Shown here: positions 9,201 to 34,428 of the stretch, piece by piece
How positions within the stretch are numbered: position 1 is the first letter of the stretch
Layout: each line of letters starts with the position of its first letter
From: a virus
DNA: 35,336 nt
Reading direction: 5' to 3' (one strand)
IMG/VR virus record: IMGVR_UViG_3300037961_005073
Location: 33,165 to 68,500 of that record
Notes under the pieces: model-generated
What the model was told of the DNA's origin: nothing
What the model saw: the letters and a program-made list of their open reading frames with translations, nothing else
The model's database searches: none
Program-made: the position numbers and the translations under genes

Positions 9201-12200
9201 TGGTCGAAGATGATGAATATTGGGAACCTAATGGTTGTAGTGTATATGGATCCTCTGGATAAGTAAGCTCAGGTGCATTATACGGACCATTTCTATGGTT
9301 TAATTGTGCAACTCTGAAGATAATACTTGGATTAAGAGATGCATTTCTATCTGGAGCTCCTGCAATAACACCACTTCCTCCATCAACAGTTTCCCCTACT
9401 TCAAATGTTCCAGAAACCATTTCAATTTCTAGAAGTTTTGGAATACAATATTGTGTAACATCAACACCATCAAAATATGCATATACTCTGGTATTTGGTT
9501 TTATGCCATGTCCAGCAAATGCAATATTTCTTGATCTCATGAATGGGATCAATTCTCTACTTACAACTCTATCTCCAACTGAAGTGTTATCAATTTGCTC
9601 ACTAAATGTTGCTCTTGTTCCATCTCTTGTTTCTATGCCAGTATCAATAACTTCCAATAGTGTGTCTTCAAGAGTTTCATTTCTGATACCCCATCCTAAC
9701 CATACATTTTGGTTTCTTGTTCTGGTTGTAGTTATCTGCTCTTGACCTGTCCAATTAGCAACCCAAGAATTCCAAACAGTTGGTGCAAATCCAGTTTGTG
9801 GGTCTACATTAAGATTTTGTACAGCGTCAGCAAAAACCCTTGCATAATTTCCTTCAACGTTAATATATTTCGCTTCAAGTCTAACAGTATCAACCCAAGT
9901 ATCAGAAGCTGGATTTAATTGTAAAGATCCTCTCCAGAAATTGAGAATGAATGGAGTAACACTTTCCACCCTAGTTCCAAAGTTTTGGGATTTCCACTCA
10001 ATATTTGAGTAATCAAGGGTTACAATATCACCTTTCTTTACAACATTAACACCTTCTGGTTGAGTAAATGCAAGGTCTGCTGATGGATCTATACCAGTTA
10101 CTGGTCCAGGTATTAAGTCTAAAGCATTAGTAAAGTGGGAAGGTCTTAACTCTTTATTTTGAATATCAATACTATTCTTGTAAAGAATTGCATTATCTTG
10201 TGCAAGAAGAGTTGTAAAATTATCCACAAAGAAACCAGACTTAAATCTAGATAAACCCTCAGAATCTGGAATAAGAAGATTTGCTGTGTTAGTTTCTAGT
10301 AAAGATAGAGATGTGTAGTATTCTAAATTCTTAATTCTTTTTTCAAGTTGTCTGATATCAGACATCCTATATCTCTTATGCTCTAAGAATTGAATGGAAG
10401 CATTAGCCACATCATATAGATATGGTGGTAAAAATATGGATGCTATTTCAATAGAATCATCAACTGTAGTTGGTTTTTGTGGATTTTCTGAGGGCGATCC
10501 ATAGTTGATTTGGAAAATACCATTTTTTGTCAAACAAACTCTATCAATTCTTCCGAGGAAGAATGAGAATGATGCGATTATATTCTCATCAGAAGCTAAA
10601 ACATTAGCAGCAGAATTTCCAGATGCATTAAAAGATCTTCCATAAAACTCAAATGGTGATCTTGTTGCGTTAGTTAAACTATATTCAGAAACTCTTGGTC
10701 TAATATCAATTAGATCAGTGTTTCTATGCCCATTAACCGTCTTAATTTCTTTAGTATAATCAAAATCTTGATAAGAATTGCAAATTGTTATATCACCATC
10801 ATCTGATTGCTCATAATAACCAGTACTAAAGTATACCTTCAATTGTTTTGTAGGTACTACCCGATCAGATTTTCTTGAAATTGAACCATAATCATAAATT
10901 GTGCCTTTTTGTCCTGTTTTAAATGTATAATTTGATGATACATCAAAACTTTCAGCATCAAGTGTAGATATAACTGCAGAAGAAACTGATTCTGAGAATA
11001 AAATAGTTTCGCCTTCTTTAAAGGTATTTTTATTCTTGTATATAAATTCTACTTGAGTAGAGGAAATTTTTCCTGCACAAATTGCAACAGCTCCACTTGT
11101 TTGCCCAACAAATTCTTCTCCGATTATTAAATCAGTTGTTGTATTTGATGGTGTAGTAATTGAAGTTAAAATTGCTTTCGGTGCAAATGCATCTGAAGTA
11201 CCAGCAGATTCAAAAATACCATGTATTTCTACAATGTCTGGAACATTGAGACAAATATCATCATCCTGAACCCTTGTACCATATGGGAAATTGCCATATT
11301 GCAATCCATCATTTAATGTAGTTGCTCCGATACCAGATCCCTGAAGTTTTGATTTGTCAATTACTAGAGTATTAACTCTTTTCTTTCTTTTTGATTTTGA
11401 TGTTGGTTTGGTTTTTGTTAAAGTTGTTATTAATGTGCAACCAGTATCATCTGATCCTAAATTGTAAATTTGAATTTGTGATCCTCCTGATGCAAAAGAA
11501 AATTTGTCAGAAGTTAATACTTCATAAGATCCATCAGTTCTTACTAATGAATACCTTGCTGAAGTAAATGGCAAGAAAGTTTCATTTGTTCCAGCATCAA
11601 CAGGTGCGGTTAATTCCCCATTTGCGATGTTAACCGTAAATTCTTTTCTAATAGTTAATGACGCTTCTGATAAATCAACATTAGAAACGTGATTTTTAGG
11701 AAGCTTTGTATATAAAGTACTATCAGTTGAATCATCTAAGTAACTTGCCAAAACTGTCAAATCTGTAATTTGCAAGTTTGTGGATGGTAATGTTGAATTT
11801 GTTATTCCAGTAACTGACTCTACCTGTTCAACTTCAACAAAATTTGACCCAATAGTTGTAACTTTTGCAATAACTGGATCAGATAAAGTAGTATCTGTAT
11901 ACTTAATCAGATCATTTTTCTTGACCAATGTTCCAGGAAAAACTGGATTTAAACTTGTTACCGTACTAATTCCAGCAGTAAGGGCACTGACAGTTGCAAT
12001 TCCAATTATATATCTATCAGTCTGAACAATATCTGCAGAAAATGTAATTGCAGCACCAACTACCCCATGAACAGATTTTACATTTGTAGTTCCATGTGCA
12101 GTAACAGCAACTCCAATCACACCACTACTGATACCATTAAAAATAAATGATTCATTTGGAATAAATGTTCCGTTAGTATTATAGAGTGTTATTGCCTCAC

Positions 12201-13725
12201 TATCATTTACATCTGCAAACAAATATCCAGTAGCACCACTATTTTCTCCCTCTACATATGTTGGAGTAGAGTAGGTTACTGGGTAATTTAAAGTAACTTC
12301 TGTTGTTGTTTGTAAATCAAATAAAGAAATTTCCCACTCATTGATATTGCCATTCGATAATGAATATGCACCAGAATCTAATCTAAAATCATAAACTCTT
12401 GCAACTCCAATTTCTTTACCAGCAGCAATCGTTGATGCAGATCCAACTCTCTCATCACGCAAACTTAAAACAAAAGTATTTCCAATTCCTACAGTTGGAG
12501 ATCCATATACTCTGTTTAGTTTGAATGTTGATCCTGTATTGTAAATAATTGATTGATTTTTTAATGTTTTTGTAGTTCTTGGTTTTTCTACATCAAGAAA
12601 AACAGGTCCTGTCGTTTCTATTTCATAACCTTTAACAAACGCTTTTCCTGGAGAAACTTGATAAAGTGCCAAACCTTCTTCTGGCGTAGATCCACCAAAG
12701 GTAAATTGACCATCTTGGTGAATTCCCCTATTGCCCTTTCTATCATTTAAAGACTCTTTTACAGAAACATCAAACGGATTTACAACATAATCCCCAGATT
12801 CTGCAAAAGTTCTTCTCGCAAGTTCAGCTGCAAGATAAGATTTGTCAGTAGTTTGAGGTTTTATCTTAATAGCACCATCAATGATTGTCGCTAACTCGAT
12901 AAAATTGTCATCATTAATATCTGATAGACTCTTTTTAAATAATCTTGTAGTAATTCTCAGTCTATCTGCACCAGGAGCTGCATAGTTATTAAATCCTTGA
13001 GAATTATCATTTAAATCCTCATCAAGATCAGCATTGATAACTTCTTCTGTTATAAACAGTCCGACTCTATAATTAGGAAGATTTGAATATTGGTCGAGTA
13101 TTAATGTTTCTGTTCTTACATTTAAAAACTGACCTCTAATAAAATAAACACCATCAAAAATGGTAAAAGAAGATCCTACTGATGCAGCATCAGATTCTTT
13201 AGTTATTGCAAACGGAGACCCTTGTTCAATTGCGGTATTTCCAAGAAGACCACTCGTAATTGGTGCAGATGCGATTAGAGATTCTCCATCAGCAAAAGTA
13301 TCTTCTAAATTATTTGAGGTATTCGATCCCAAATAATTTACATAAAGGGTAAGATTTCCACGTTCAGAGTCTTCGGGCAATAAAATCTTATCAACTGTTG
13401 CAGTTACTCCAGAAGTTTCACCCGTTATCTTTAATCCAACTAATTGATCTGCATATGCAGCGACTGGAACACCCAAATAATCATTAACTAGCTCTATTGC
13501 ATAATAATATGAATTATATACGGTATTTCCAGGAATTACTTTTGCACCTTCTTTAAAAAAGTGTTGTCCAAAAGTTTCAACTTGATTTTGGAGAATTGAT
13601 TGTAATCCTGTCAGCTCTCTTGCTTGAACAGGATATCCAGGTTTAAAAAGAATTTTATGATAATCATCATTTGCATCAAAATCATCAAAGTATGGTGATA
13701 CATTTAAATTTGTTTTCTGTGACAT
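6259..13725 (-). CDS. Giant DUF4815 structural protein (2488 aa), probable peripheral baseplate component
   Basis: The N-terminus (NVSPYFDDFDANDDYHKILFKPGYPVQARELTG, then LQNQVETFGQHFFKEGAKVIPG) is the DUF4815 signature found in cyanophage structural proteins. It replaces T4 genes 9-12 in position, between gp8 and gp13, so a role in the outer baseplate or fibre attachment is likely but inferred. Near residues 1655-1675 a run of prolines broken by RR precedes WDPIAQSFYV, a conserved motif that opens the C-terminal half. Glycine-rich modules lie near residue 1900 (INAGIGYTPT, ALTGNGYRAGD). An IGNEIIEYTSVSGN module with a following RG lies near 2115. The end (VPRVKDLRVIALA) is typical of this family. 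It starts six bases after gp8 and shows no frameshift. Confidence 0.92.
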   Translation of the reverse strand: MSQKTNLNVSPYFDDFDANDDYHKILFKPGYPVQARELTGLQSILQNQVETFGQHFFKEGAKVIPGNTVYNSYYYAIELVNDYLGVPVAAYADQLVGLKITGETSGVTATVDKILLPEDSERGNLTLYVNYLGSNTSNNLEDTFADGESLIASAPITSGLLGNTAIEQGSPFAITKESDAASVGSSFTIFDGVYFIRGQFLNVRTETLILDQYSNLPNYRVGLFITEEVINADLDEDLNDNSQGFNNYAAPGADRLRITTRLFKKSLSDINDDNFIELATIIDGAIKIKPQTTDKSYLAAELARRTFAESGDYVVNPFDVSVKESLNDRKGNRGIHQDGQFTFGGSTPEEGLALYQVSPGKAFVKGYEIETTGPVFLDVEKPRTTKTLKNQSIIYNTGSTFKLNRVYGSPTVGIGNTFVLSLRDERVGSASTIAAGKEIGVARVYDFRLDSGAYSLSNGNINEWEISLFDLQTTTEVTLNYPVTYSTPTYVEGENSGATGYLFADVNDSEAITLYNTNGTFIPNESFIFNGISSGVIGVAVTAHGTTNVKSVHGVVGAAITFSADIVQTDRYIIGIATVSALTAGISTVTSLNPVFPGTLVKKNDLIKYTDTTLSDPVIAKVTTIGSNFVEVEQVESVTGITNSTLPSTNLQITDLTVLASYLDDSTDSTLYTKLPKNHVSNVDLSEASLTIRKEFTVNIANGELTAPVDAGTNETFLPFTSARYSLVRTDGSYEVLTSDKFSFASGGSQIQIYNLGSDDTGCTLITTLTKTKPTSKSKRKKRVNTLVIDKSKLQGSGIGATTLNDGLQYGNFPYGTRVQDDDICLNVPDIVEIHGIFESAGTSDAFAPKAILTSITTPSNTTTDLIIGEEFVGQTSGAVAICAGKISSTQVEFIYKNKNTFKEGETILFSESVSSAVISTLDAESFDVSSNYTFKTGQKGTIYDYGSISRKSDRVVPTKQLKVYFSTGYYEQSDDGDITICNSYQDFDYTKEIKTVNGHRNTDLIDIRPRVSEYSLTNATRSPFEFYGRSFNASGNSAANVLASDENIIASFSFFLGRIDRVCLTKNGIFQINYGSPSENPQKPTTVDDSIEIASIFLPPYLYDVANASIQFLEHKRYRMSDIRQLEKRIKNLEYYTSLSLLETNTANLLIPDSEGLSRFKSGFFVDNFTTLLAQDNAILYKNSIDIQNKELRPSHFTNALDLIPGPVTGIDPSADLAFTQPEGVNVVKKGDIVTLDYSNIEWKSQNFGTRVESVTPFILNFWRGSLQLNPASDTWVDTVRLEAKYINVEGNYARVFADAVQNLNVDPQTGFAPTVWNSWVANWTGQEQITTTRTRNQNVWLGWGIRNETLEDTLLEVIDTGIETRDGTRATFSEQIDNTSVGDRVVSRELIPFMRSRNIAFAGHGIKPNTRVYAYFDGVDVTQYCIPKLLEIEMVSGTFEVGETVDGGSGVIAGAPDRNASLNPSIIFRVAQLNHRNGPYNAPELTYPEDPYTLQPLGSQYSSSSTILNVDSFSLANIAQGQFSGYIEPGMPLVGRTSGAIANVRAIRLISDITATVKGSLFIPDPNVDIHPRFETGAKTFVLINDEDGDPDFATTSATEGFISSGTLETVQENIVSVRNGRVDLIEQTEQRDIRRTTGAQVVATTVISSRTWAFPPPPPPPPRRPPPPPPRRWDPIAQSFYVEESEGVFITRCGVYFNTVSTSNIPVVLQIRTMELGTPTQKVLPFSEIFLQPEQCTVSEDGTAVTYFEFDAPVYLKGGTEYSICMLSQSPDYSVFISRVGENDINTQAFVSNQPTLGSFFKSQNASTWEPSQWEDLKFTLDRADFIEDGTIEFYNPDLNRGNTQIARLLPDSLQMSSKEIRISLGSTISDPNLEFGNTVSQYGSNATGNYIDNAGIATGNLSVINAGIGYTPTSGGYTFSGVSLNTITGNGSGATADITINNGSVGVATIALTGNGYRAGDVLEIASIGAVNVGQNARLSVVSIANTNQIILNNVQGDFLTGAANTMRYTNSAGTAADLNTEIVGIGVTIDNITTVSDGLHIKVNHKNHGMYTGEDYVEISGAISDIRPTKLGVSYSADSTSALTVTDASRFSTFEGVGVGTTNPGYLKIGNEIIEYTSVSGNNIEGDILRGTNARTYPVGTPVFKYELNGISLKRINKTHYLGDVSTESYPITFDSYHIKIDTSTDGIDRSIENGYPKLYQKESKNTGGYSVDASQNIPFEVLTPIVQNLTVPGTSISAEVRTVTGKSLSGNEIPFVDNGFETIAPNSPNYLETPRIICSKINEQNKLDNVPESKSVNMRLSLGTTNSKLSPVIDTQRVSMIFTSNRVNSTITDYANDQRVSDINSDPTAFQYVSKEITLETQSTSLKMVMNAHINLYSDIRAFYAIGDNPNFTPIFTPFPGYDNLDFKNQIISPEASDGRPDSFVTPTSSLGFVPEELDYKEYTFTADNLPSFKSYRVKLVLTSTNQAYVPRVKDLRVIALA
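8706..8755. repeat. GGT/GGA triplet-repeat tract encoding a polyproline linker
   Basis: The plus strand is an almost pure run of GGT and GGA triplets with one short interruption (TCTTCTT). The minus strand encodes eight prolines, RR, six prolines and RR inside the 2488-aa protein. The many GG pairs on one strand could form a G-quadruplex, and the triplets are likely prone to length change. The composition stands out strongly from the AT-rich surroundings. Confidence 0.85.
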
Positions 13726-15300: not shown

Positions 15301-15312
15301 TATTTATTTATT
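15301..15312 (-). promoter_or_regulatory. Double late promoter octamer (AATAAATAAATA) before gp8
   Basis: Two overlapping matches to ATAAATA lie on the minus strand across the stop of the giant gp7-like gene, about 16 bases upstream of the gp8 ATG. The form fits a T4-type late promoter. It would let gp8 and the genes after it be transcribed independently of the 13-kb gene upstream. The string is low-complexity, so chance is possible. Confidence 0.45.
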
Positions 15313-18300
15313 CGCTATAACTTGTATATTTTAGCGGAGATGTTCTCTTCACAATAGTTCCTGTTGAAATTCCAACAATTCCAGAAGAATTATATGCTGA
15401 ATGTGATGTAGATATATTTCGACCAGTTAATGTAATTCTTCCCCAACTATATTCGCCAAACATATTACTATAACCAATACCAGCATTTGGGTCATCCAAT
15501 CCATAAAAACTATCCTTCAAACTTACAGTTACTTTTGCAACATAAGTGTAACCAAGACCAGGAGTATCAGTCTGCCCAATAGAAACACTAATTGCCTCAT
15601 AAACATTATCCAAATGTGTAGTACCAACGCTAACTTGTTGACCAGAAGAATTAAGAGTAGTTACTCCAGATCCAACATTTGAATTGTAAACTGTGAAATA
15701 ATATCCAGTTTGAATGCCACTTATAGTAGTAACTCCTGTAACTGAAGACTCTCTAAAGAAAGAATTTTCTGGAATATGAAGATCAAATACTAAACCAGTA
15801 TGTGCCACACCAATAGAAGTTGTAGATACTCCAACAATAATTCCAGAATCACCTTCATATAGATCAACCTGAGCAATTTCTTTACTCATAATTGGAGGAG
15901 AAACTAAAACTGATGGTGGTTCCGATGAGGAATAACTAGTTCCACCAGAACCAGTGACTGTTATACCTGTAACAACACCATTTGTTATAGATGCTGATGC
16001 AGATGCTCTTTGAGTCGTTCCAAGTCCAACGGGGGATTGTATACTAATGATGGGAGCACTTGGATAACCAGAACCACCATCTGTTATAGAAATTGATTGC
16101 ACAGTGCCTGCGGAAGATACTACTGCCGTCGCAGAAGCAGGTGAAGATACTACTTGCGGGACAAATGTAATATTATCTTGGAAGGCCAGAGTTACTCCAC
16201 TTTCATTTGTTGGGTTGAAAAATGGGCGAATGTTATCAACAGATGCAATAGTAGATCCTATACCAACAGATTGAATCAAGTATGCAAGTGGATTGATTTT
16301 TGGCTCATACAATTCTCTACTCTTTCCAATTACTTTTCCGTCAATAATTTTGTCATTTCTTTGTTTACACCAAACAACAGGTCTAATTAAAGATTCATCT
16401 GTAGTATTTCCTGGACCAAAATATGGGTTTGTTGATACAAGATCAGTAGAATCGACTATAGATACTGTTCTATCATCTTCCTGAAGAGATGCTTCTTGGT
16501 TGTTATATGGATCATAACCAACTTGTAATGAATCTCCAACTTTGACAGACTCTAAAATATCTCTAGGTACAACATCAACAGAACCCGTTCCTTTATAGAA
16601 AAGAATTGAGCATTTATCCTGTGGTCGAGGTGCCTCTGTAAAGGTTAATAAAGATCCACCTAGGAACTCATAGGCTTCACCAGGAACTTGAAGAATGTCA
16701 TTAATAAACACTAATATTACATCCTTAACATCAATTTTTGAACCAGATGCTGATTTAATTGCAGTTGGAACTGTGTCTATTTTCAATTGGAACGTTCTCT
16801 TCGTACCATTAAATTCGTTTTCGATTTGGTCAAAGACTTGAAGATCTCCAATATTCCATGCAACAAATTTGTCGGTAAATGTTTTTTCTATACTAATTTG
16901 AAATTCTGAGAATGATGTTGATGATGTTGTAGGAATACCAGTCAATCCACCCAAAGGAACTGTCAAAATTTCTGACTGACCATATGCATATCCAGTATTA
17001 GTAAGTTCAAAATCAATTATACTTGATCCAGTACCAACTACAATATCTATTGATGCATGTGTTCCTAATCCCACTCCAAATGGAGATGAAGAACTATATT
17101 CCAAAGGAATATTGGAATAACTTAGTGGGGCCTCAATTAAAATATCAAGTGGTTTATTAACCTTACCACATCTTGCATAGAAGTGTGTTCTAGTTGAGAT
17201 ACCGGTGTTTATTTCAAAGGTTGTATTATCAATAACTCTAAGAACATTTGTTCCATTTACCGCTGGATCTGATCCACTAGCAGAGTTATTATTTAATCTT
17301 GGTGCAATAAGAACCGGTTGTGCAACTCCACCACTTTGATAGTAAGTAGCAACTGTGGAAGTTCCAACATTAACTTCAAATTCTGTAGCACTATTAACTG
17401 CAAGGACTTTAGTACCACAATATGCAGGATCAGTTGTTCTTGGATACACATGCGTAGAACCACCATTATCCAAACCACAAGTCATTCCAATACCAGTTAA
17501 CAGAACATCACTCTTCTGACCACTTGTCGAAAGATTATGTGGACCAGAAGTTGTAACTGTCATAATGCCAGTAGTACTACTGTATACAACATTAGAAATA
17601 TTAACTGGTCCAGCACCACTATAATCGCATGTAAATGCTATTCCAGAAACAATAACCCTATCACCAAAAGACAATCCGTGTGCGTTGGAGGTAGTAACTG
17701 TTGTCAGACCAGTTATTGATGAATATCCAACATTTGAGATATCTCTTGGTACATAGAATACTTGAGAATCTGTAATGGACACATCTGTGGATATATTACC
17801 AGTTCCGGTCATGATAGTAGCAAAACCAACATGATAAGTGGTTATGCCAGGTCCACTATTCTCCCCACTATTCTCCACACTTACATTTACGTATCCAAGA
17901 GTTGGATTTGTAATACCAATACTGACTTGAGTTCCAGTTGGAATCTCAAGAGAACTTGTAGATCCAATACCAATTCTTACAAAAGTAGAAGCTGTCGATA
18001 CAACAGGACAATGTTCTGCATTAATGAATGTACCAACACCAATAGTAACGTTATCTCCAGTGTTCAACAGGTTGATAATATCATATACACTATTTGAATC
18101 TTCCAAATAAATTTCAGTTGATCCAATGCCAATAGTGCTAGATGTATCGGTTAGAATTTCATATCTATCTCTTCCTCTATATCCAGAACCACTATTTCCA
18201 ATACTAACAGATTGAACTGTTCCGAGACCAGATACAGTTGCAGTTCCACCAGCAGAGACTAATGGTTGATATCCAAGGCCTTCAACAGAACCAACAGAAA

Positions 18301-21300
18301 CAATGATTCCACCAACTGGAAGAGTTGATTTACTGATATCTGATGAAGTCGTTCCTTCTCCGTTAAATGTTATTGAAGTTATTCCAGTGCTTTCATTTAG
18401 TGTATAATCAAAAAGCAATCCTGGTCCTTGGAAAATGTCATTAACTAAAACAATAGAATTTTCAGTAGATACTCCAGTGACATTAGCACCTTGATATTTC
18501 AAGGTAAATGTATCTGCAGAACCGTTAAATTGTCCAGAAATTCCATCATAAAGATAATTTTTAGAGTATGTGGAGTATGTGGTATTCACATCTCCAGATC
18601 TCATGAAAGATCTTCCATGGAACTTAGATCCCTTAGATATTCCCCCCCAGTCTCTTTCATCCGGTCTATTTGTAGTTGAAGAGAACGGAAGATTTCCATA
18701 TGGAGCCTCTACAAAATGTATGGTAGTATCTTCAATATTATAATTACCATCAACTTTCGTCACTGTAGTTCCTGCAGTATAACTGGAAACTGATGTTCCA
18801 ACCCAAGGTCTTCTGACACCAAAAACATTAGTGGATCCAATGCCAACAGAAGTAATTTTCATAACTTCATCGCCAACTTTTATGAGATCTCCACTAAAAA
18901 TTGAAGTAATTCCAGAAACAAATACATTATCAGTAACTATTGATAAATCTTCAGATAATACTGTCGAAACATCAGTATTATGAATTGGACTTTGAATCGA
19001 ATTATCAAGTGTAACAAGAACTTTTGTATTTTTGTTACTTGCAACAAATTTATGGAATGTACCAATACCCACATCCGCAATATTCAATGTTTCTGGAGAA
19101 GCACTAAGAGCTTTTTCTGCAGTTGATGCAAGTTTAAATGAACTTTCACTGGTCTTAACCACATAAACTTCTGATGGAAGTTTATCAGTCACGCCAATTC
19201 CAGGAATATTAGTGGAAGCAATTTCAATGGAGTTATCTGCTAAGTCTATTTCACCACCATGACTATAATTTATTTTTTCTCCGGTTACAAAGAAATGATT
19301 TGATATATTAAAACTATTATTAGTAGTATTGACTACACTTGCATCGCTACCATCAAAACGTTTCTCAAAAATTGGAACAGTTTTGTGCTTTAATTCAAAT
19401 GATCTCTTAATATCAAACTCTGTTCCTCTATAGATTGCATAATTACTTTCTAAAAGGGAATTGTTGAATGACATCCCATCATTAACAAATGATCCACTAT
19501 GTTTTATAGCATTAATGTAAACATTAGAGTGTACATTAATATTTGGCAATGGAGTAAACACCAATTCAACTGTATTAGTTCCATTTATTCTGGTGCCAAT
19601 AGTTCCAAGTCCTGATAATGTTTCAACATTTGCATATTCTACCAAGTAAGATTCTCCAGTTGAAGTAGAACTATCATAAGTTCCCAATGAAACGAATTCA
19701 GATATTTGATGTTCATTATTGCTTGTATCTGAAATTTGAATGACTCCATATGCAGCACCATAATTAATTGGGTAGGTCCCAATCACATTTTCTGTAGGAG
19801 ATCCAGAAGAACTTATTGTCGTTGTTTTTGATTCTAGTCTTGCATTTACAAAATCGATAGTACCAATACCTGATGTTGCAGAACCTGCCATAAGAATTTG
19901 GACAGAATTTACAATAGAGGTGGTTCCAATACCAGCTGTTGGAGTAAAATCAACCTTCAATGTAGATCCATCAAGATATGCGTGATAAGTTCCTAATCCA
20001 GATATTGCACTAGAAAGTGATGCATTTAAAGTTCCATAATCTTGGAATGTGACATTAGTTCCATCGTGAATTACACTAAATTCTTCAAATTGATCAACTC
20101 CAATATCAGAACTAATATTAACAATAACCTTAGCTGAAGTGTACGTATTTGCAACAGAAACAATATTTCCCGCCACTCCATCTTCAATTGAAACGCTACT
20201 AGTCTTGATAGTAGATGCTCCAAAAGATGTACTACCAACACTTAAAAGATTTTCATCTAGGTTGTACGCTAATAATGATACGTTAAAGTCATTGATACTA
20301 AATTTGGTTGGATAAAAATAAAGTACACCATTATCTCCAGATAATGCAAAATCAAATGATCCCATATCATAAGTCGTTGACAATCTGGCATAATTGTTAA
20401 TATAACCAGTAGATGAATCATTTATTATAGATAACAACTGAACTTGAGATTCATTATTATATCTTCTATCTTTAATATATGCAATGATTTTTTGTGATCT
20501 TGCATTTGCTTGTACAAAATCATAAACATTAGCAAATCTTGTTGATCTTGGTTGACTGTTAAATTCACCACTTACATCATCAATAGAAAGAACCCTATTT
20601 CCAACAGATTCGATATAATCTATCAAAGTCGCACTTTCAAAGAAAATTTTATCAGAAATTACTCCAGAAGAAACTGTTTTAAAGTTTTCTCTAACTCTAT
20701 CAAGATTGAATACACAATCCAAATCCATAACACTGATTAAATCTGCAACAATGTCAACACTAGTAAGATTTGTTGATAGACCAACTGATAATGAATTAGC
20801 ATCGGCAGGAGTTGTTTCTAATTGAAAATCTGAAAATTTCTTATATCCAGCAGTATGATTTAAAGATCCAACAGCATCTTCCCATGTATTATAATCAACA
20901 TTAGATTTTAAACTGTATGCAAAATTTTGATAATAAAAGTTGTCTTGAATTTTTTGTGAATCAAAATTTAAATATCCAGTATTATTTTGCCATCCAGAAT
21001 TAACTTTTGAAGAGGATTCTAAGTTTACAAATGAATCATAACTGTTAACTGAAACACCAATTCCTAGTGTATTTGAAGACAGGCCTTCTATAAATTCACC
21101 AACTACAAACTTTTGGTCAGAAATTACTTTTAAGAAACTGTTTGTTTGATCCCACGAATCAACTATTCCCAATGAAACTGAATTTGATTTTACTTTCTCT
21201 CCTGGCAAAAAGTTATTTTTTTGTAATTGGGATTCAAAAACTGGAAATTCTTTTTCGGGAATAATTCTTCCAGAAGAATTGAATGGATCAAAAACTCCAG

Positions 21301-24300
21301 GATATCCATTTCCAATCTGATCTGTTAAATTGTAAGTAACCGTAGCGGTTCCAATACCACCAACATTCGGGTCAATTGCAGTTAAAGTGAATAGTGAATA
21401 GTCATAATCAGAAGAATTAAAGCCTGAACCTGTAGATCCAACACCAACACTTACGTTTTCGATTAAAACCCTATCATTTACTGCAAATGGGAAAGATTCC
21501 GAGTCACTAAATCCTTTAGATAAAGTGACAGTGACATCTTTGGTTAATCCATCATATGATATAGTGCTGATACCAACACCATTTGGGTTATTGATTGGAA
21601 TTATTTTTGGTTCAACATCAGATAACCCAAAAGTATTACGTAAAATAGTTACGCTGCTATCATCCAGATTATATCTTAGGTCTGCTTCTGGTACAAGAGA
21701 ATTTGTTTTCCCATCAAATACTAAAAGTTTTGGTGCTACTGTATATCCTTTTCCAATATAATTAACTTGTACAAAATCAAATGAATTCAGAGGATCTATC
21801 TTTATTATTTGAGGTAAACTAGAACTAGGTGTTAAAGTTGTATCAGTTGGGAAATTAAATCCAATATTTTCTACTGCAGAATTTTTTAATCTTCCTATTG
21901 ATTTTCCATCACACGTTAAAATAGCACCACTTCCTATTCCACTTGTTACAGTCTCTATTCTTGGTAGAGAATTATATGAAAATCCTGCATTATCAATCCT
22001 AACTTCTTTAATTGGGCCAAATGCATTTATAGAGTCTGTTGAATAAGATAACACTGAAGAACTTGAAGTGTATTCATCATCTTCAGGAAGATCTTTTAAA
22101 GTATACGTAAATGAGGTAGATGATCCAACTAATACTTTATGCTTTCCATTGTATTCACTAGAAATAATTAATAATTCATTATTTGACTTAACTTCATCGT
22201 CGATAATAATTCTATTTTTAGTTTCTGGCAAAGTTGCATCATATATTGGCGTCAATTTATAGTATAGTTTTTCTGGTAAAGAATCTGTTACCAACAATTC
22301 ATATTTGGCATCATTAGTTACACCAATAGTTCCATATTTTTGAATATCAAAAATTTTACTCGTTTTTGAAGACTCAAATAAGTTTGTAAAATTGCTATTA
22401 ATGTAAAATTCTAATTTAAATGCGGGATATTTGGTTGATTGATATGTATATGAAAGAGTAGAATCTGATAAATCAAAAACAACTGTAGAATTTTTATAGA
22501 AATTTAATTTTGGATTAACAGAAGAAATTTCTCCTGCAGATGCAATGGCAATTTGGACAATATCAGGTATTCTCTTTGTGGCTCCATAGTAACTATTTGA
22601 TAATTGTATAGTATTTTTGTCAAAAACAACCACATAATACTTTCCATTATTATTGAGACCTGGATGTGGTGATGATGATGTATGAATAATTTTATCACCA
22701 GTAGATAATCCATGATCACTAATGGTGATGGAATTATTAGAAGTATTCACATCTGAAGATGTAAATGTCTTTGGATTAATTACCATTACCGAATGGTAAT
22801 CATTATATTTTACAACAATAGTTGATGTTGATGATGGATTTACATCAATGTATACATGATCATCATTTTTCAGACCATGGGTTTGTGCAGTGGAAACAGT
22901 TACTGTATTTTTAAACACAGATCCTGATAAAGATGAATAGTTTGTTTTAAAACTATGATAAGTGTTAGTTCCAAATCCAGTAAAATACAATGTTCCTATC
23001 GAATTTGTATCTGGTGTTATGCCGTAGAAGAATCCAGTTGTACCTAATCCAACCTTTACTGTAGATACTCCAATTAAATCGTTTGATACTTTTGCAACAT
23101 ATAAAGTTTGTGGATCTGAAAGAACAAGACTTGTACCAACACCATCAGTAGAAACTCCGATAACAGATCCACCGTTAGCTGAATAAGTTAAAATATCTCC
23201 AGTCAATAATCCATGATCTGGTAAAAATATAGATTTAGTTGGAACAAAAATTTGTGTAGATCCTGAACCTGGATTTGAAATTGATAAAGTTGTACCAATA
23301 CCAACACCAAAAATAGTGCCAACTCCTAAAGATTCGCTTGGATTAAAATAAATTTCTTTATTTCTCCTATATGGAAAATCACTTCTAAATCCAGCATCTA
23401 TTAGAATTTTTCTTGGAACTTCATATACAGTTTCTCCAGTTGTATGAGATACGCCAACTGTACCACCAATTTGTCTTAAAACTCTCAGCCTGGAACTTAT
23501 TTTGTCTATCTCCAATACCTTAAGTCTTTCATCCGTAATTTGAATGATATCATTTACTCTGAGTACATTCAAATCACCACGTACTTGAATGTAAGTAGAA
23601 ATTCCTGTCGCAAGCAACGTACCAATGCCTACATTAGTATTTCCAACTCCAACCAAGAAAAATGTATTTGATGATATTCCTGCAGTATAGGTTCCTTGTA
23701 TACCATTTGAAATTGAACTCAGACCAGAAACATTAATTGTATCGAGATTGGTAAATTCATGTGGATTTGTGGAAATTAATTCATAAGTATTTTTTGCACC
23801 TATACGATTAATTTCAACATTTGATAAAGATGTTGTCCCTAAACTTATAGTGTTAACATCTTTTCCAGACAATCTAGATACCTTAGCTGAGGCACCAAAT
23901 CCTTTTGCTGTACCATCAAGATTATCATTATCAAATACCAAGTCATCATTAATTTGATAATTATTTCCACCAAATTCAACATCTACTTTATCAATCTTGC
24001 CTGAATATGTTGATTTTATTTTAATAGTTTGTTCCAAATTGTTTGGCAAATTAATATAATCATAATATTGATTGCCAAATTTTAAATTATAATAATATGT
24101 GTTTCTTTTCCAATTAGTTTCATTTAAATCAATTTTTTCTTGATTTGAGTTAGTGTTAAAATTAAACGTATTTGGTTTTGATATATAAGAGTTTCCAATA
24201 ATATATGGGAATGCTGGTCGCTTATATCCAACAAAACTTCCAGTAGAATCGACAGAATCTAAAAATGTTGCAAAATATGCATATGTTCCATTTGGAAAAT

Positions 24301-27300
24301 CTGGAGTAACGCAGAATCTGCCATTATTTCTATCAAGAACGGAATCATCATCTACTTCAACATATGAATAATCTTCAATGAAAAATCCTAGTGGGAAATT
24401 TGATGTTGATGGCCTGTTTGATTTGGGATCTAAAACATACCCAGATTTCATTTGGCTAACAATTCCACCCTCTTTTGTACTATATGCATATGGTCCATAT
24501 ATTGGATTTCCGTCATATGCCCAACCAATAATTGGAGAGTGGTCTGTTGAATTAATTTCATTAGATCCATTTTTTCTCAAATCTGCTTTGGAATATAAAG
24601 GATTCCCCAAATTGTCTATTGAATAAACTAACTCTCTTAATTTTCTTGGGGCATATAGATTACAATACTGAAGACTATCTTTTATATTTTCCGTTGGGGT
24701 TAAAACTCCATCATCTTCAGAAATATTATTAAAATATTTCTGGAAAAGGTTTATATTCCAATTTTGAATTTCTGCTACGGCATTAAAACCAGATCCAGAT
24801 TGAATAACATCTATTGTAGTTGATGTTTGCTCATAACCAGATCCACCACTTACAACATAAACTGAAATTATTCTACCATTCTCAATGATGGGAGTCAGAG
24901 AAGCTCCACTACCCAAACCATCACCATCAACAACTAATTCTGGAGGGGATATGTAATCAGATCCACCATTATTAACAATAACTTTTGAAATCGATCCATT
25001 AGAAACAATCGGCACTAATACCGCTTCAGATCCTACACTAAGGTTGAAAGATGGTTGTCTTTGGTAATTAAAAGTTTGTGAAGATCCATAATTATAACCT
25101 TTAGTCTCTAAATGCACTGAATTAATTGATCCAGTAAATTTTGGACTAATCTTGGCTTTAAAATCTACTCCATTAACTGAAGAGATGCCAACATTTCCAA
25201 CTACTTCAACAGAAATTTCTGGATAATTAAAAATATGCGAACCACTTCCAGAATTTGTAAGTTCAACATATTGCTTTGTTTTATAATAAAAATCTTTTCC
25301 TTGACCTGTGGCACCCAATTGAGAAAGTTTAAACGAATTATCATCAACCTTAGTCAAATAATATTCCGTATTTGTTGTTAATCCAGAAACAGGTGTTCCT
25401 TCATTGTAGTACTTAACAATTTCTCCAGACTGGAATTCATGGTCATCTATCGTTACCTGATTTGATGATGTGTTTATTCCTGCAACAGTGCAAGTTTTCT
25501 TTTTATTTTCATATCCAGTGCCAGATGAAACTATACTGACAGAATCTAAAATTGACTTTTTGTTTACAGTGTTAAGTCTATGAACACCTACCCCATAAGA
25601 AGATAGTGTTACTGTATTAACTCCCACAGCAGCCTCAGAATAAGATTTATGTAATTTAATCTGATATGGAGTTTGTACAGAAATATAATAAATCGACTCT
25701 GATTCTAATCCACCAATAGGGGTTTGAGAATCTGCTTTATAAACTACTGGCTCTAAATTTGAAAATTTGTGGTACGTTGAAAATCCAATTGTGGATCGTG
25801 TGCTCCCCAATCCAACTCTCTCGGACTTAATATCAGAATTAAAAGTTACTTCATGTGGAATCAACTTCATATTTGCTAGAGCAATTGCTCCTGATCCATT
25901 TCCTCCAGTTATTTGAATTTTTGGAGTTTCTTGATAGGCAAATCCTGGATCAACAATATCAATCCTTTGTAAAGATCCCGAAACGGCGCAATATCCAGTA
26001 GCACCTGTCCCAATTGTATCTGAAATTAATAAATCAGGTGGATTAATGACATCAAAACCATTTCCTGGAGAAGTTACATTTACTTTTTCTATACGACCAT
26101 AATATAAAATATCATTTGACTTGTAATTTAAAATTTCTACACCATTCACTAAAATACCAGTTTTTCCTGGAACAGTTTCATAAGTATAACCATCATTCTC
26201 TGGTAAATTTACTTCTCTAAGTATTTTTTGTGGGATTAATTTTTTAGAATAAAATTTGCGATGGGCAATTAAATTATTTGTTACTGGTACTGGCCCTTCA
26301 ATATTGATAAATTTTGATTTATCAATATCAGCACGACTTCTTGCTAATTTAATCTCACTAGAATTTATTCTTTTAACATAATAGATACCCTCATCAAATA
26401 AGAAAGAACCATCAACAATAGTATCAGTAAATTCATTATCGAAACCTAAAGTACTCGATAGAACTTGCTCTGGTTTGTAATATACTTCATCTCCAGTATA
26501 AAACCCATGGTCAAATCCAGGTGTGATATTAAAAGTATCCCCGTCAAAAGATCCAGAAAATAATATTTCTGGATGAACTGGTTTTAATGGAGTATCTTTG
26601 AAAGTTGGAAGTGAATTAGAAGCTACTAAAGTTTTATTACCATCAAAATATACATTCTGTACATTTGTTGATACAATATTCAATTCTGCATTATCTGGCG
26701 TATTAACTTTTGAGATATATCTATGGGCTTTATATTTTTTGCTTGATTCTGTAGATATTGCAGAACTAAACTTAAGAACTAATTGGTTATCCGAAATGAC
26801 TGATAATACAGTACCTATAAAAGTTTGATTAACTTCATCTATTAATTTTACACTCTCTCCAATTCTAAAAATGTGAGCTATATCAAGAGTAACCGAATAT
26901 GTATTGTTTACACTATCAGATAAAGAAATATCTAAAACATTATACTTGGTAGCAAAATTTAAAACCCAGTTTTTGGACTTCAAATTTTTGACATTTACTC
27001 CAAGACTATTCAATGCAACTGAATCGCCCTTATTATAAAAATATGCATTGGGATCTGGATCTAATGAATTTAAAACCGAACTAATTCTTACACGTATTTC
27101 TTCTCCAAATTCATTAGTTGCATGGGCATAGGTGTTTATTCCAACACTAGAATTGTCAAGAATCCTGCCAACTATATTATCACAACCATAAAATTGATTA
27201 ATTGTTTTTGAAGTGTAGCTAGTAAAACCAACACTTCCATCATCATATTTAAATTGAAGTTCTCCTGATTCGGGAAATCCAATTGTAGAATCTACATCAA

Positions 27301-28282
27301 TATGTGTTGAGTTTTCTAAGACATCTCCAATAGCACTTGTTTTTGGATGAACACTAAATGCTCCATAGACAGCACCCTCATAATTAAGATCTCTATTATA
27401 CCCTGCATCAATTTTAACTCTATAGTATTCTCCACCAGTCTTTACATTAATTTTCTCTACATTAGATACAGGACCATATGCACTATTAATATCTCCATAT
27501 TCATTTTGGAAAAGAGTGAGATTTACTAAATCAAAAGGATCTCCCTCTACAGATTCTACAGAAAAATCATTAGTAATCTGATAGTTAGCATCAGATGGTT
27601 TGATTAATGATTCTCCAGGCCTAATAATTTTTACTTCTTCGTTATATAATGCTTTAAATAAAATTTCAAAAGATCTATCAGTTCCTTTGCTAGAATAAAA
27701 ATCTTTAACCTGTTTTAGAAAAACATTTTGATTTAATTCCGAATCAAGAGTTCTATTTTCTAATCCTGGAGACAATTGATATTTTGTCTTGGATAAAAAT
27801 TCTTTAAGGAATAAAGCACTTAGATTGGTAATCGTTGTGCCTGCACTATGCGCTTCTGCTTCCGACGTTGAAAAGGACAATTCCTTTCCATACTTAGAGA
27901 TACCACTAAATCCCCTAACACAACCTGTAAATGAATTTTTTGTTCTTCCAGTGTATGTAATTATTTCGTCGTCAATCTTTAAAAGACCATAAGAGTTTGG
28001 AAATCCTTCAATACCATTTGGTGAAGATAACAAATCAACAATTATTGTTTCACTAATTTCATCTATTTCGGTCAAAAGGACAACCGACTCATTTAAATTC
28101 GTTGTCTCGTCAAGTTTTATATACTTATCAATATTTTGAAGTAAATCTAAAGGAGCTCCTTTAAATTCCTGTGCAATGTAATATTGGGATAAAAAATCTG
28201 CAACAAGTGGGTACTCCTCCCTTACATAAGAAGGAAGTTGATTTTTTACGATGGTATTGAACTTAACTCTATTTTGGGTCAT
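15308..28282 (-). CDS. 7: Giant gp7-like baseplate wedge protein (4324 aa)
   Basis: It lies between gp6 and gp8, where T4 has gene 7 (1032 aa). The N-terminus confirms the link: DFYSSKGTDRSFEILFKALYNEEVKI (about residues 194-219) lines up with T4 gp7 DFYSTKGIEASYKFLFKVLYNEEVEI. An LLKIDDEIITYTGRT...VRG module lies near 100-125. The remaining 4000 residues are mostly repeats. HG-x(2)-TGD-x-V-x-Y modules ending in YYV...FKL are found near 595, 840, 950, 1860 and 3000, with partial copies elsewhere. Glycine-rich GSGY modules number ten or more. A YHYH-domain-like segment (GWAYDGNPIYGPYAY) lies near 1257. Two FNG...VFINDILQxPG modules lie near 3282 and 3864, the latter type resembling T4 gp10. 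The frame is open for 13 kb. It probably initiates the wedge and adds a large peripheral extension. Confidence 0.88.
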   Translation of the reverse strand: MTQNRVKFNTIVKNQLPSYVREEYPLVADFLSQYYIAQEFKGAPLDLLQNIDKYIKLDETTNLNESVVLLTEIDEISETIIVDLLSSPNGIEGFPNSYGLLKIDDEIITYTGRTKNSFTGCVRGFSGISKYGKELSFSTSEAEAHSAGTTITNLSALFLKEFLSKTKYQLSPGLENRTLDSELNQNVFLKQVKDFYSSKGTDRSFEILFKALYNEEVKIIRPGESLIKPSDANYQITNDFSVESVEGDPFDLVNLTLFQNEYGDINSAYGPVSNVEKINVKTGGEYYRVKIDAGYNRDLNYEGAVYGAFSVHPKTSAIGDVLENSTHIDVDSTIGFPESGELQFKYDDGSVGFTSYTSKTINQFYGCDNIVGRILDNSSVGINTYAHATNEFGEEIRVRISSVLNSLDPDPNAYFYNKGDSVALNSLGVNVKNLKSKNWVLNFATKYNVLDISLSDSVNNTYSVTLDIAHIFRIGESVKLIDEVNQTFIGTVLSVISDNQLVLKFSSAISTESSKKYKAHRYISKVNTPDNAELNIVSTNVQNVYFDGNKTLVASNSLPTFKDTPLKPVHPEILFSGSFDGDTFNITPGFDHGFYTGDEVYYKPEQVLSSTLGFDNEFTDTIVDGSFLFDEGIYYVKRINSSEIKLARSRADIDKSKFINIEGPVPVTNNLIAHRKFYSKKLIPQKILREVNLPENDGYTYETVPGKTGILVNGVEILNYKSNDILYYGRIEKVNVTSPGNGFDVINPPDLLISDTIGTGATGYCAVSGSLQRIDIVDPGFAYQETPKIQITGGNGSGAIALANMKLIPHEVTFNSDIKSERVGLGSTRSTIGFSTYHKFSNLEPVVYKADSQTPIGGLESESIYYISVQTPYQIKLHKSYSEAAVGVNTVTLSSYGVGVHRLNTVNKKSILDSVSIVSSGTGYENKKKTCTVAGINTSSNQVTIDDHEFQSGEIVKYYNEGTPVSGLTTNTEYYLTKVDDNSFKLSQLGATGQGKDFYYKTKQYVELTNSGSGSHIFNYPEISVEVVGNVGISSVNGVDFKAKISPKFTGSINSVHLETKGYNYGSSQTFNYQRQPSFNLSVGSEAVLVPIVSNGSISKVIVNNGGSDYISPPELVVDGDGLGSGASLTPIIENGRIISVYVVSGGSGYEQTSTTIDVIQSGSGFNAVAEIQNWNINLFQKYFNNISEDDGVLTPTENIKDSLQYCNLYAPRKLRELVYSIDNLGNPLYSKADLRKNGSNEINSTDHSPIIGWAYDGNPIYGPYAYSTKEGGIVSQMKSGYVLDPKSNRPSTSNFPLGFFIEDYSYVEVDDDSVLDRNNGRFCVTPDFPNGTYAYFATFLDSVDSTGSFVGYKRPAFPYIIGNSYISKPNTFNFNTNSNQEKIDLNETNWKRNTYYYNLKFGNQYYDYINLPNNLEQTIKIKSTYSGKIDKVDVEFGGNNYQINDDLVFDNDNLDGTAKGFGASAKVSRLSGKDVNTISLGTTSLSNVEINRIGAKNTYELISTNPHEFTNLDTINVSGLSSISNGIQGTYTAGISSNTFFLVGVGNTNVGIGTLLATGISTYIQVRGDLNVLRVNDIIQITDERLKVLEIDKISSRLRVLRQIGGTVGVSHTTGETVYEVPRKILIDAGFRSDFPYRRNKEIYFNPSESLGVGTIFGVGIGTTLSISNPGSGSTQIFVPTKSIFLPDHGLLTGDILTYSANGGSVIGVSTDGVGTSLVLSDPQTLYVAKVSNDLIGVSTVKVGLGTTGFFYGITPDTNSIGTLYFTGFGTNTYHSFKTNYSSLSGSVFKNTVTVSTAQTHGLKNDDHVYIDVNPSSTSTIVVKYNDYHSVMVINPKTFTSSDVNTSNNSITISDHGLSTGDKIIHTSSSPHPGLNNNGKYYVVVFDKNTIQLSNSYYGATKRIPDIVQIAIASAGEISSVNPKLNFYKNSTVVFDLSDSTLSYTYQSTKYPAFKLEFYINSNFTNLFESSKTSKIFDIQKYGTIGVTNDAKYELLVTDSLPEKLYYKLTPIYDATLPETKNRIIIDDEVKSNNELLIISSEYNGKHKVLVGSSTSFTYTLKDLPEDDEYTSSSSVLSYSTDSINAFGPIKEVRIDNAGFSYNSLPRIETVTSGIGSGAILTCDGKSIGRLKNSAVENIGFNFPTDTTLTPSSSLPQIIKIDPLNSFDFVQVNYIGKGYTVAPKLLVFDGKTNSLVPEADLRYNLDDSSVTILRNTFGLSDVEPKIIPINNPNGVGISTISYDGLTKDVTVTLSKGFSDSESFPFAVNDRVLIENVSVGVGSTGSGFNSSDYDYSLFTLTAIDPNVGGIGTATVTYNLTDQIGNGYPGVFDPFNSSGRIIPEKEFPVFESQLQKNNFLPGEKVKSNSVSLGIVDSWDQTNSFLKVISDQKFVVGEFIEGLSSNTLGIGVSVNSYDSFVNLESSSKVNSGWQNNTGYLNFDSQKIQDNFYYQNFAYSLKSNVDYNTWEDAVGSLNHTAGYKKFSDFQLETTPADANSLSVGLSTNLTSVDIVADLISVMDLDCVFNLDRVRENFKTVSSGVISDKIFFESATLIDYIESVGNRVLSIDDVSGEFNSQPRSTRFANVYDFVQANARSQKIIAYIKDRRYNNESQVQLLSIINDSSTGYINNYARLSTTYDMGSFDFALSGDNGVLYFYPTKFSINDFNVSLLAYNLDENLLSVGSTSFGASTIKTSSVSIEDGVAGNIVSVANTYTSAKVIVNISSDIGVDQFEEFSVIHDGTNVTFQDYGTLNASLSSAISGLGTYHAYLDGSTLKVDFTPTAGIGTTSIVNSVQILMAGSATSGIGTIDFVNARLESKTTTISSSGSPTENVIGTYPINYGAAYGVIQISDTSNNEHQISEFVSLGTYDSSTSTGESYLVEYANVETLSGLGTIGTRINGTNTVELVFTPLPNINVHSNVYINAIKHSGSFVNDGMSFNNSLLESNYAIYRGTEFDIKRSFELKHKTVPIFEKRFDGSDASVVNTTNNSFNISNHFFVTGEKINYSHGGEIDLADNSIEIASTNIPGIGVTDKLPSEVYVVKTSESSFKLASTAEKALSASPETLNIADVGIGTFHKFVASNKNTKVLVTLDNSIQSPIHNTDVSTVLSEDLSIVTDNVFVSGITSIFSGDLIKVGDEVMKITSVGIGSTNVFGVRRPWVGTSVSSYTAGTTVTKVDGNYNIEDTTIHFVEAPYGNLPFSSTTNRPDERDWGGISKGSKFHGRSFMRSGDVNTTYSTYSKNYLYDGISGQFNGSADTFTLKYQGANVTGVSTENSIVLVNDIFQGPGLLFDYTLNESTGITSITFNGEGTTSSDISKSTLPVGGIIVSVGSVEGLGYQPLVSAGGTATVSGLGTVQSVSIGNSGSGYRGRDRYEILTDTSSTIGIGSTEIYLEDSNSVYDIINLLNTGDNVTIGVGTFINAEHCPVVSTASTFVRIGIGSTSSLEIPTGTQVSIGITNPTLGYVNVSVENSGENSGPGITTYHVGFATIMTGTGNISTDVSITDSQVFYVPRDISNVGYSSITGLTTVTTSNAHGLSFGDRVIVSGIAFTCDYSGAGPVNISNVVYSSTTGIMTVTTSGPHNLSTSGQKSDVLLTGIGMTCGLDNGGSTHVYPRTTDPAYCGTKVLAVNSATEFEVNVGTSTVATYYQSGGVAQPVLIAPRLNNNSASGSDPAVNGTNVLRVIDNTTFEINTGISTRTHFYARCGKVNKPLDILIEAPLSYSNIPLEYSSSSPFGVGLGTHASIDIVVGTGSSIIDFELTNTGYAYGQSEILTVPLGGLTGIPTTSSTSFSEFQISIEKTFTDKFVAWNIGDLQVFDQIENEFNGTKRTFQLKIDTVPTAIKSASGSKIDVKDVILVFINDILQVPGEAYEFLGGSLLTFTEAPRPQDKCSILFYKGTGSVDVVPRDILESVKVGDSLQVGYDPYNNQEASLQEDDRTVSIVDSTDLVSTNPYFGPGNTTDESLIRPVVWCKQRNDKIIDGKVIGKSRELYEPKINPLAYLIQSVGIGSTIASVDNIRPFFNPTNESGVTLAFQDNITFVPQVVSSPASATAVVSSAGTVQSISITDGGSGYPSAPIISIQSPVGLGTTQRASASASITNGVVTGITVTGSGGTSYSSSEPPSVLVSPPIMSKEIAQVDLYEGDSGIIVGVSTTSIGVAHTGLVFDLHIPENSFFRESSVTGVTTISGIQTGYYFTVYNSNVGSGVTTLNSSGQQVSVGTTHLDNVYEAISVSIGQTDTPGLGYTYVAKVTVSLKDSFYGLDDPNAGIGYSNMFGEYSWGRITLTGRNISTSHSAYNSSGIVGISTGTIVKRTSPLKYTSYSE

Positions 28283-33034: not shown

Positions 33035-33184
33035 CTAATTTACTAACGCATTATATATCAGTACTATCAAAAACCCAAGGGGTATTAATACTATTCTACC
33101 CATTGTCTTTGGATATCTGATTAACCACCCTGCGAATACAACCTTCCAGAAATTCCAATATGGGCGACTTTTTTTCACTCTCAT
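33035..33184 (-). CDS. Small membrane protein (49 aa)
   Basis: The product starts MRVKKSRPYWNFWKVVFAGW and contains a hydrophobic stretch (about residues 31-46: IVLIPLGFLIVLIYNA) that should cross the membrane once, after a basic Trp-rich N-terminal part, giving an inside-positive orientation. It fills the gap between the leader below and the 65-aa gene exactly. A sigma-70-type promoter lies about 150 bases upstream with a structured leader between. There is only a weak GGA as ribosome-binding sequence. Function is unknown; a role in altering the host membrane during early infection would be plausible inference. Confidence 0.65.
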   Translation of the reverse strand: MRVKKSRPYWNFWKVVFAGWLIRYPKTMGRIVLIPLGFLIVLIYNALVN

Positions 33185-33884: not shown

Positions 33885-33914
33885 GAGACTGACTCCGTTG
33901 GGTGATACTTAAGC

Positions 33915-33943
33915 AGTATAGAATGTCTGAGCGATATTGTCAA
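33915..33943 (-). promoter_or_regulatory. Sigma-70-type promoter before the 58-aa gene
   Basis: An exact TTGACA (33938-33943), a 17-base spacer and TATACT (33915-33920) lie upstream of the ATG at 33884. This gives a leader of about 25 bases with a GGAG sequence. It is one of the best promoters in the window. Confidence 0.8.
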
Positions 33944-33955
33944 TCTTCCACTGGT

Positions 33956-33963
33956 TATTTATG
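33956..33963 (-). promoter_or_regulatory. Late promoter octamer (CATAAATA) in the early region
   Basis: CATAAATA on the minus strand lies 13 bases upstream of the -35 box of the sigma-70 promoter of the 58-aa gene. It has the same sequence as the sites before gp13 and gp15. It could give late transcription of the small-gene block, but a single AT-rich octamer is weak evidence. Confidence 0.3.
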
Positions 33964-34032
33964 AGGAAGACTGATATTTTTGTGTTGTCAATCCCTGGAA
34001 AAACTTATCAGCGGGGGGTTGACAATTTGGCG

Positions 34033-34076
34033 GTGATCGGTTAAGCTCATGCTCGCTTAGATCACAAGGTCTGAGC
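34033..34076. other. Two mutually exclusive hairpins
   Basis: Hairpin A pairs GTGATC (34033-34038) with GATCAC (34060-34065) and TAAGC (34042-34046) with GCTTA (34055-34059), leaving a 3-base bulge and an 8-base loop. Hairpin B pairs GCTTAGAT (34055-34062) with GTCTGAGC (34069-34076), allowing two G-T wobbles when read as plus-strand RNA. The arms share 34055-34062, so only one can form at a time. Confidence 0.5.
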
Positions 34077-34115
34077 ACATTTAGAGAGACATAAAATCAT
34101 CAGCAAAATAACACA

Positions 34116-34171
34116 TAATCCACATACTTTTCCACAATAAACTAACAGTTTTCCACATACATTGTGGAAAG
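34116..34171. other. Cluster of four DnaA-box-like 9-mers
   Basis: The copies are TAATCCACA (34116-34124), TTTTCCACA (34128-34136), TTTTCCACA (34149-34157) and the inverse of CTTTCCACA (34163-34171). TTTTCCACA is, to my knowledge, the cyanobacterial form of the DnaA box (E. coli TTATCCACA). Copies three and four form a perfect 8-bp inverted repeat with a 5-base spacer. Copies two and three are 21 bp apart, two helical turns. AT-rich DNA follows. The arrangement resembles part of a bacterial replication origin or a DnaA-controlled regulatory region. Confidence 0.6.
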
Positions 34172-34246
34172 GTATAAACAATGCAAAGCCATTTTTAAAG
34201 CCTTTTTTAATACTTTTTTTGCATAATCTTTATATATTTGAGTACA

Positions 34247-34271
34247 AAAGGGGGTAAAATTGCCCCCCTTT
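34247..34271 (-). terminator. Intrinsic terminator after the 49-aa gene
   Basis: An 8-bp stem (AAAGGGGG / CCCCCTTT) with a 9-base loop lies eight bases after the stop of the 49-aa gene. On the minus strand the 3' arm runs into TTTTGT. The stem also reads acceptably in the plus direction (TTTGTTGTT follows), so it may work both ways. Confidence 0.7.
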
Positions 34272-34278
34272 GTTGTTA

Positions 34279-34428
34279 TCAGAAGTCAGTAGGATTACCA
34301 GAGAAGTCAACAGCTGAGAGAGGAGAAATTGCCTCTTCATTTGTATCAGTCAGAGCATCCAAGATCTGGAGCATTTCATTACCATTGTTGGCAACTTTCA
34401 GCATACCGATCATCACTTCTTTGGACAT
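34279..34428 (-). CDS. Small conserved cyanophage protein (49 aa)
   Basis: The product begins MSKEVMIGMLKVANNGNEML and continues with QILDALTDTNEEAISP, ending LSAVDFSGNPTDF. It is a short acidic protein with an N-terminal amphipathic helix and no membrane segment. I think similar proteins occur widely in T4-like cyanophages. Function is unknown. It is followed at once by a strong terminator, which marks it as the last gene of its transcript. I see no strong Shine-Dalgarno sequence. The upstream gap holds the ACTAGG repeats. Confidence 0.72.
   Translation of the reverse strand: MSKEVMIGMLKVANNGNEMLQILDALTDTNEEAISPLSAVDFSGNPTDF

Follow-up and report, generated by a model that had tools for sequence, protein, structure and literature searches.

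A recurrent element of promoter, DnaA boxes and AT-rich DNA in T4-like cyanophages as a candidate replication origin

Why should a T4-like cyanophage carry a cluster of binding sites for DnaA, the replication initiator of its host? To our knowledge, T4-type viruses are not thought to need this protein. The cluster lies in a viral stretch of 35,336 nucleotides (positions 33,165 to 68,500 of the IMG/VR record IMGVR_UViG_3300037961_005073), hereafter called the window, and a sequence-only reading had left three roles for it: an origin, a DnaA-controlled promoter or a decoy. In the literature searched, which included few subscription papers, no earlier account of DnaA boxes in T4-like cyanophages came to light, nor did a mapped replication start of such a phage. 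A single theta origin predicted for Syn9 is mentioned in a review (PMC2984593).

The T4-like identity proposed for the DNA was borne out by gp25, gp6 and gp8-type baseplate genes on the minus strand, and the record was found to be a T4-like cyanophage near S-SM2, Bellamy and SynMITS9220M01. Beside the baseplate genes, a leftward ORF of 4324 aa (15308-28282) takes the place of the long gp7 of S-SM2, and another of 2488 aa (6259-13725) that of its VrlC protein. The region of interest is bordered on one side by a series of small leftward genes and on the other by the leftward genes that lead to gp25. Its surroundings, described earlier as non-coding, comprise about 400 bp (33885-34280) without a leftward gene. 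The following features were located there:

33915-33943, minus strand: leftward sigma-70 type promoter TTGACA-17-TATACT, 11/12 consensus bases, directed toward the gp25/gp6 side
33956-33963, minus strand: CATAAATA, which by its sequence fits the cyanophage late promoter motif NATAAATA (PMC2984593)
34019-34047, plus strand: rightward sigma-70 type promoter TTGACA-17-TAAGCT, opposing the flanking genes, conserved in isolates and contigs
34054-34083, plus strand: conserved core CGCTTAGATCACAAGGTCTGAGCACATTTA, an imperfect dyad, which defines 58 viral contigs
34116-34124, plus strand: weak DnaA-box-like site TAATCCACA, assigned from sequence only
34128-34136, plus strand: DnaA box TTTTCCACA, exact match, with the same spacing to the next box in S-SM2
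34149-34157, plus strand: DnaA box TTTTCCACA, exact match, 21 bp from the box at 34128, the spacing typical of the family
34163-34171, minus strand: inverted DnaA-box-like site CTTTCCACA, one mismatch
34170-34250, no strand: AT-rich tract, candidate DNA-unwinding element, AT content in the top ~2-3%, with TTTTTTAAT-type words
34250-34267, plus strand: terminator-like hairpin GGGGGTAAAATTGCCCCC, from a consensus scan

The order is thus rightward promoter, core, boxes, AT-rich tract and terminator-like hairpin, and the promoter is directed into the AT-rich tract. The conserved promoter and core, transcribing against the genes, had been overlooked in the sequence-only reading. In the window the -10 hexamer of this promoter is weak, and a consensus scan missed it. 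Leftward promoter sites are also visible in S-SM2, Bellamy and SynMITS9220M01. The core, of about 30 bp, reads CGCT[TA]AGATCAC...CACATTTA and occurs in tandem in some relatives. The hairpin would end a predicted rightward RNA of ~215 nt and possibly leftward transcripts too.

Four DnaA-box 9-mers had been claimed. Two of them are exact, at the claimed distance of 21 bp, and are the only exact copies of TTTTCCACA in the 68.5-kb record; a third is the inverted site with one mismatch, and the fourth, with two mismatches to TTTTCCACA and one to TTATCCACA, is weak. The box at 34149 and the inverted site at 34163 form the perfect inverted repeat that had been noted, 8 bp in length, while the box at 34128 pairs with the same inverted site over 14 bases, one G-U included. 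When the window was dinucleotide-shuffled 300 times, no shuffle held two exact boxes within 60 bp and two held three clustered one-mismatch sites, so that such clusters stand above chance, as the comparison with shuffled sequence proposed earlier was meant to decide. Over the whole window one-mismatch sites were at chance level (19 observed, 20.3 expected), from which it follows that their clustering, and not their number, is unusual. At least two near-consensus matches to the box of the host group therefore stand together beyond chance. The adjoining tract is AT-rich as described, the 70-bp windows that start at 34170-34190 falling within the top ~2-3% by AT content.

In order to find relatives of the element, viral contigs were scanned with the core alone, which returned 58 stretches; together with isolates and the window they gave a set of 62 elements. 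An exact TTGACA was observed in 49 of the 58 elements with a recognisable rightward promoter, and a 17-bp spacer likewise in 49 of the 58. The flanking ORFs run opposite to this promoter in nearly all elements, and TTTTTTAAT-type words of the AT-rich tract are common to most of them. Extra copies of the core were present in 9 of 56 elements, with none expected from shuffles. Counted as TT[AT]TCCACA, DnaA boxes were 139-fold denser in the 62 elements (51 per 13.5 kb) than in their flanks (12 per 440 kb). At least two boxes were found in 20 of the 59 near-complete elements, and the spacing was 20-22 or 42 bp in 22 of 29 cases. The cluster is therefore a recurrent feature of T4-like cyanophages that extends beyond one record. 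In some elements that lack boxes, the repeat TTCTCAATAA, direct and inverted, stands at the same place and resembles half of a Fur-type site, and other box-free elements carry TATGCGTC/GCATAAA repeats at the box position; both kinds may be alternative initiator or regulator cassettes.

A second search was started from the boxes instead of the core, using viral contigs with pairs of TTTTCCACA at any spacing from 17 to 29 bp. Among the matches listed, 85 of 121 pairs were 20-22 bp apart. The listed contigs with T4-like cyanophage proteins numbered 59, and in 20 of these, among the matches listed, a laxly defined promoter-core element was found within 500 bp of the boxes, with ~2 expected. In some of them the boxes stand upstream of the promoter, and further elements with diverged cores were seen by eye among the listed contigs. 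A second architecture was observed in eight contigs among the matches listed, in which as many as four boxes form an array that precedes a TTGACA-17-TA...T-GGCCAAGATC promoter element by 150-200 bp. Pairs at 20-22 bp were also present in contigs that do not match T4-like cyanophages (44 of 68, among the matches listed), so DnaA boxes in viral DNA seem to be helically phased quite generally.

The isolates presented a mixed picture. In an alignment of four of them, the rightward promoter and core were conserved and the following stretch was variable; both boxes at 21 bp were kept in S-SM2, and the other three isolates had no box. S-SM2 has a single copy of the element with its two exact boxes. 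Syn9 has two boxes at the element, inverted, and S-PM2 three, the promoter being poor in both. Beside the boxes of S-PM2 (19480-19620) a run of degenerate repeats (AAGATTTTGAGATTTTGCAAAAACTGAGATTTC...) is reminiscent of tandem binding sites. In S-SKS1 the order is promoter, five tandem repeats of ~22 bp, three boxes at 21-bp steps and AT-rich tract. In P-TIM68 two boxes precede the promoter by ~185 bp, and in S-8S55 a single box lies at the element. In these six isolates the boxes at the element account for 13 of the 38 exact TTTTCCACA or TTATCCACA copies in their genomes. No box was found at the element in 6 of the 12 isolates (Bellamy, SynMITS9220M01, S-SCSM2R, S-CAM9, S-SSM7 and P-SSM2). 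The conservation in relatives on which the earlier proposal depended holds for part of them, at the same element, and fails for half of the isolates; DnaA is thus not generally required. Neither of the two refuting conditions examined, chance frequency of such clusters and lack of conserved boxes in relatives, was borne out. On a tree of a neighbouring gene, box presence changes about 10 times, at least two of them on well-supported branches. The box array is gained, lost or exchanged often, and promoter and core persist.

As for the protein that reads the boxes, TTTTCCACA is the cyanobacterial DnaA box, known from footprints with Cyanothece DnaA and from reports on Synechococcus elongatus and Anabaena (PMC4674748). 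In WH7803, which such phages infect, DnaA carries a canonical DNA-binding domain with the usual recognition motif. The published consensus and this domain together strengthen the DnaA-box reading, and host DnaA probably binds the phage boxes. A DnaA of the phage itself was considered as reader and rejected, since the C-terminal DNA-binding domain of DnaA was absent in seven phage records.

Among an origin, a DnaA-controlled promoter and a decoy, the anatomy tends to favour the origin. We tentatively read the site, with slightly less than even confidence, as a composite transcription-activated origin of a T4-like cyanophage that involves DnaA through an exchangeable box cassette; for the role as origin taken by itself the chances appear evenly balanced. 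Host RNA polymerase would start at the opposing sigma-70 promoter and read through the core and the AT-rich tract, where the RNA would stay annealed as an R-loop, as at T4 oriF/oriG, and would supply the primer from which the phage replisome starts the leading strand. Host DnaA, in this lineage and about a third of its relatives, would sit beside the AT-rich tract on an array of two to four consensus boxes with a phase of two helical turns, and the bound protein would help to open the DNA or regulate the transcript. Opening of the DNA by DnaA is the weakest step of this proposal. It is also possible, and we hold this somewhat more cautiously, that the group has a single conserved transcription-coupled origin to which DnaA is recruited by a phased exchangeable cassette, although T4-like cyanophages bring their own helicase, helicase loader and primase; box-free lineages would then use other repeat cassettes at the same spot. 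The proposed check by GC skew gave the origin no support: neither GC skew nor fourfold-site skew shows the switch expected of a bidirectional (theta) origin at the element in S-SM2 or Syn9, genomes in which a one-strand coding bias weakens the test, and skew was set aside as an origin marker.

The order in which we would place the alternatives is a DnaA-controlled promoter, then another binding protein, then a decoy. According to the first, the locus is the gene of a ~215-nt regulatory RNA whose elongation is tuned or blocked by DnaA bound downstream, and no origin is present. The strong conserved promoter, the terminator-like hairpin and the lack of an ORF agree with such a gene, as do the RNA fold of the window (z -6.2) and the known ~225-nt antisense RNA CfrI of S-PM2 (PMC2984593). 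The elements also fold better on average than controls (-1.9 vs -0.4). However, their antisense strand gives folds that are on average just as good, a sign of symmetric DNA repeats. No covariation was found at the variable pair of the core hairpin, so that a covarying one-strand structure, as expected of a noncoding RNA, is missing at the core pair tested, and no known RNA family in Rfam was matched. Moreover, relatives have exchanged the sequence past the core and retained the AT-rich tract. An RNA hairpin as the main reason for the boxes was rejected, given that many relatives have a decayed inverted arm (TGTTAAAAA, TGTGAATAA) and direct boxes that hold their 21-bp steps, and that covariation is absent from the core hairpin. 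Often mispaired, the inverted arm nevertheless stays box-like, and such variants are kept also in relatives that have lost the pairing with the direct box. Helical phasing and missing RNA covariation argue against a structured RNA behind the boxes. The transcript itself would fit either view because a T4-type origin needs a transcript anyway. We regard the RNA-gene explanation as unlikely, though worth keeping in mind.

It is rather improbable that another phage or host protein happens to recognise TTTTCCACA. The different repeats, such as TTCTCAATAA, at the same place in other elements speak for this, since several binding proteins may be used there. On the other side, an unsupervised word count over the 200 bp after the core returned as its most frequent 9-mer exactly the cyanobacterial DnaA box, with 35 copies in 19 of 49 distinct elements; it also ranked best of the 130 anagram 9-mers present after the core. 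The E. coli-type variant TTATCCACA was found at 21-bp steps as well.

A decoy, in which the consensus boxes of the phage titrate DnaA and block host initiation, increasingly so as phage DNA accumulates, appears less probable again. Its attraction lies in the host chromosomes. A canonical TTTTCCACA was not found upstream of dnaN in WH7803 or RCC307, and a host oriC with canonical boxes beside dnaN was rejected for these marine Synechococcus; only degenerate boxes were seen there, for instance TTTTCCACG and TTTTCCCCA in WH7803. Exact boxes are few in the chromosomes, 14 in WH7803 and 8 in RCC307. With degenerate boxes beside dnaN and exact ones rare, the phage array may bind better, and it should outbind the host sites by dnaN if DnaA reads these sequences as elsewhere. 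Against a decoy, a genome offers two to four boxes, a small number early in infection; titration would not require their link to one promoter element, and they are missing at the element from half of the isolates. Finally, a chance cluster without function has a negligible probability: the one-mismatch total of the window would agree with it, but it is rejected by the shuffle counts in the window and in the elements, where 43 boxes were observed after the core against 0.36 in shuffles of the same elements, and by the enrichment over the flanks.

The ~300-bp element, which the group conserves and which the culturable phages Syn9, S-PM2, S-SM2 and S-SKS1 contain, offers a place to seek the origin; it lies at ~52.6 kb in Syn9, ~19.3 kb in S-PM2 and ~58.1 kb in S-SM2. 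Phages deemed able to do without host initiators may thus use host DnaA, capture it or compete for it.

When known systems are compared, CfrI of S-PM2 is likewise an opposing noncoding transcript of ~225 nt in a T4-like cyanophage, but it lies at psbA and a homing endonuclease gene, and the transcript here is only predicted. Cyanobacterial oriC regions (Cyanothece, Anabaena, S. elongatus) also carry TTTTCCACA boxes in a noncoding region; the phage element differs in having no dnaN or dnaA neighbour and in its regular 21-bp steps. T4 oriF and oriG each combine a promoter with an AT-rich unwinding element, at which an R-loop of the transcript primes the leading strand, and T4 oriE has iterons (PMC3016281). 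The cyanophage element resembles oriF (ori(uvsY)) and oriG (ori(34)) in its promoter followed by an A+T-rich tract, in the predicted use of a noncoding transcript and in the T4-type replisome genes of the phage. In contrast, T4 uses a MotA middle promoter and the element a sigma-70 type TTGACA-17 promoter, to which DnaA boxes and an iteron-like core are added. Since cyanomyoviruses lack motA (PMC2984593) and the MotA promoter is absent, the element falls outside the oriF/oriG class as defined. Synteny with ori(uvsY), considered because gp25 is near, was rejected, uvsY being ~47 kb away in S-SM2. Iteron plasmid origins with DnaA boxes are represented by pSC101, P1 oriR and F oriS. Unlike these, the cyanophage element has no identified Rep initiator gene and stands, with a strong opposing promoter, on a lytic phage with its own replisome. 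The side-by-side arrangement of tandem repeats, DnaA boxes and AT-rich DNA known from them is clearest in S-SKS1; extra core copies occur in 9 of 56 elements, and the window has a single core.
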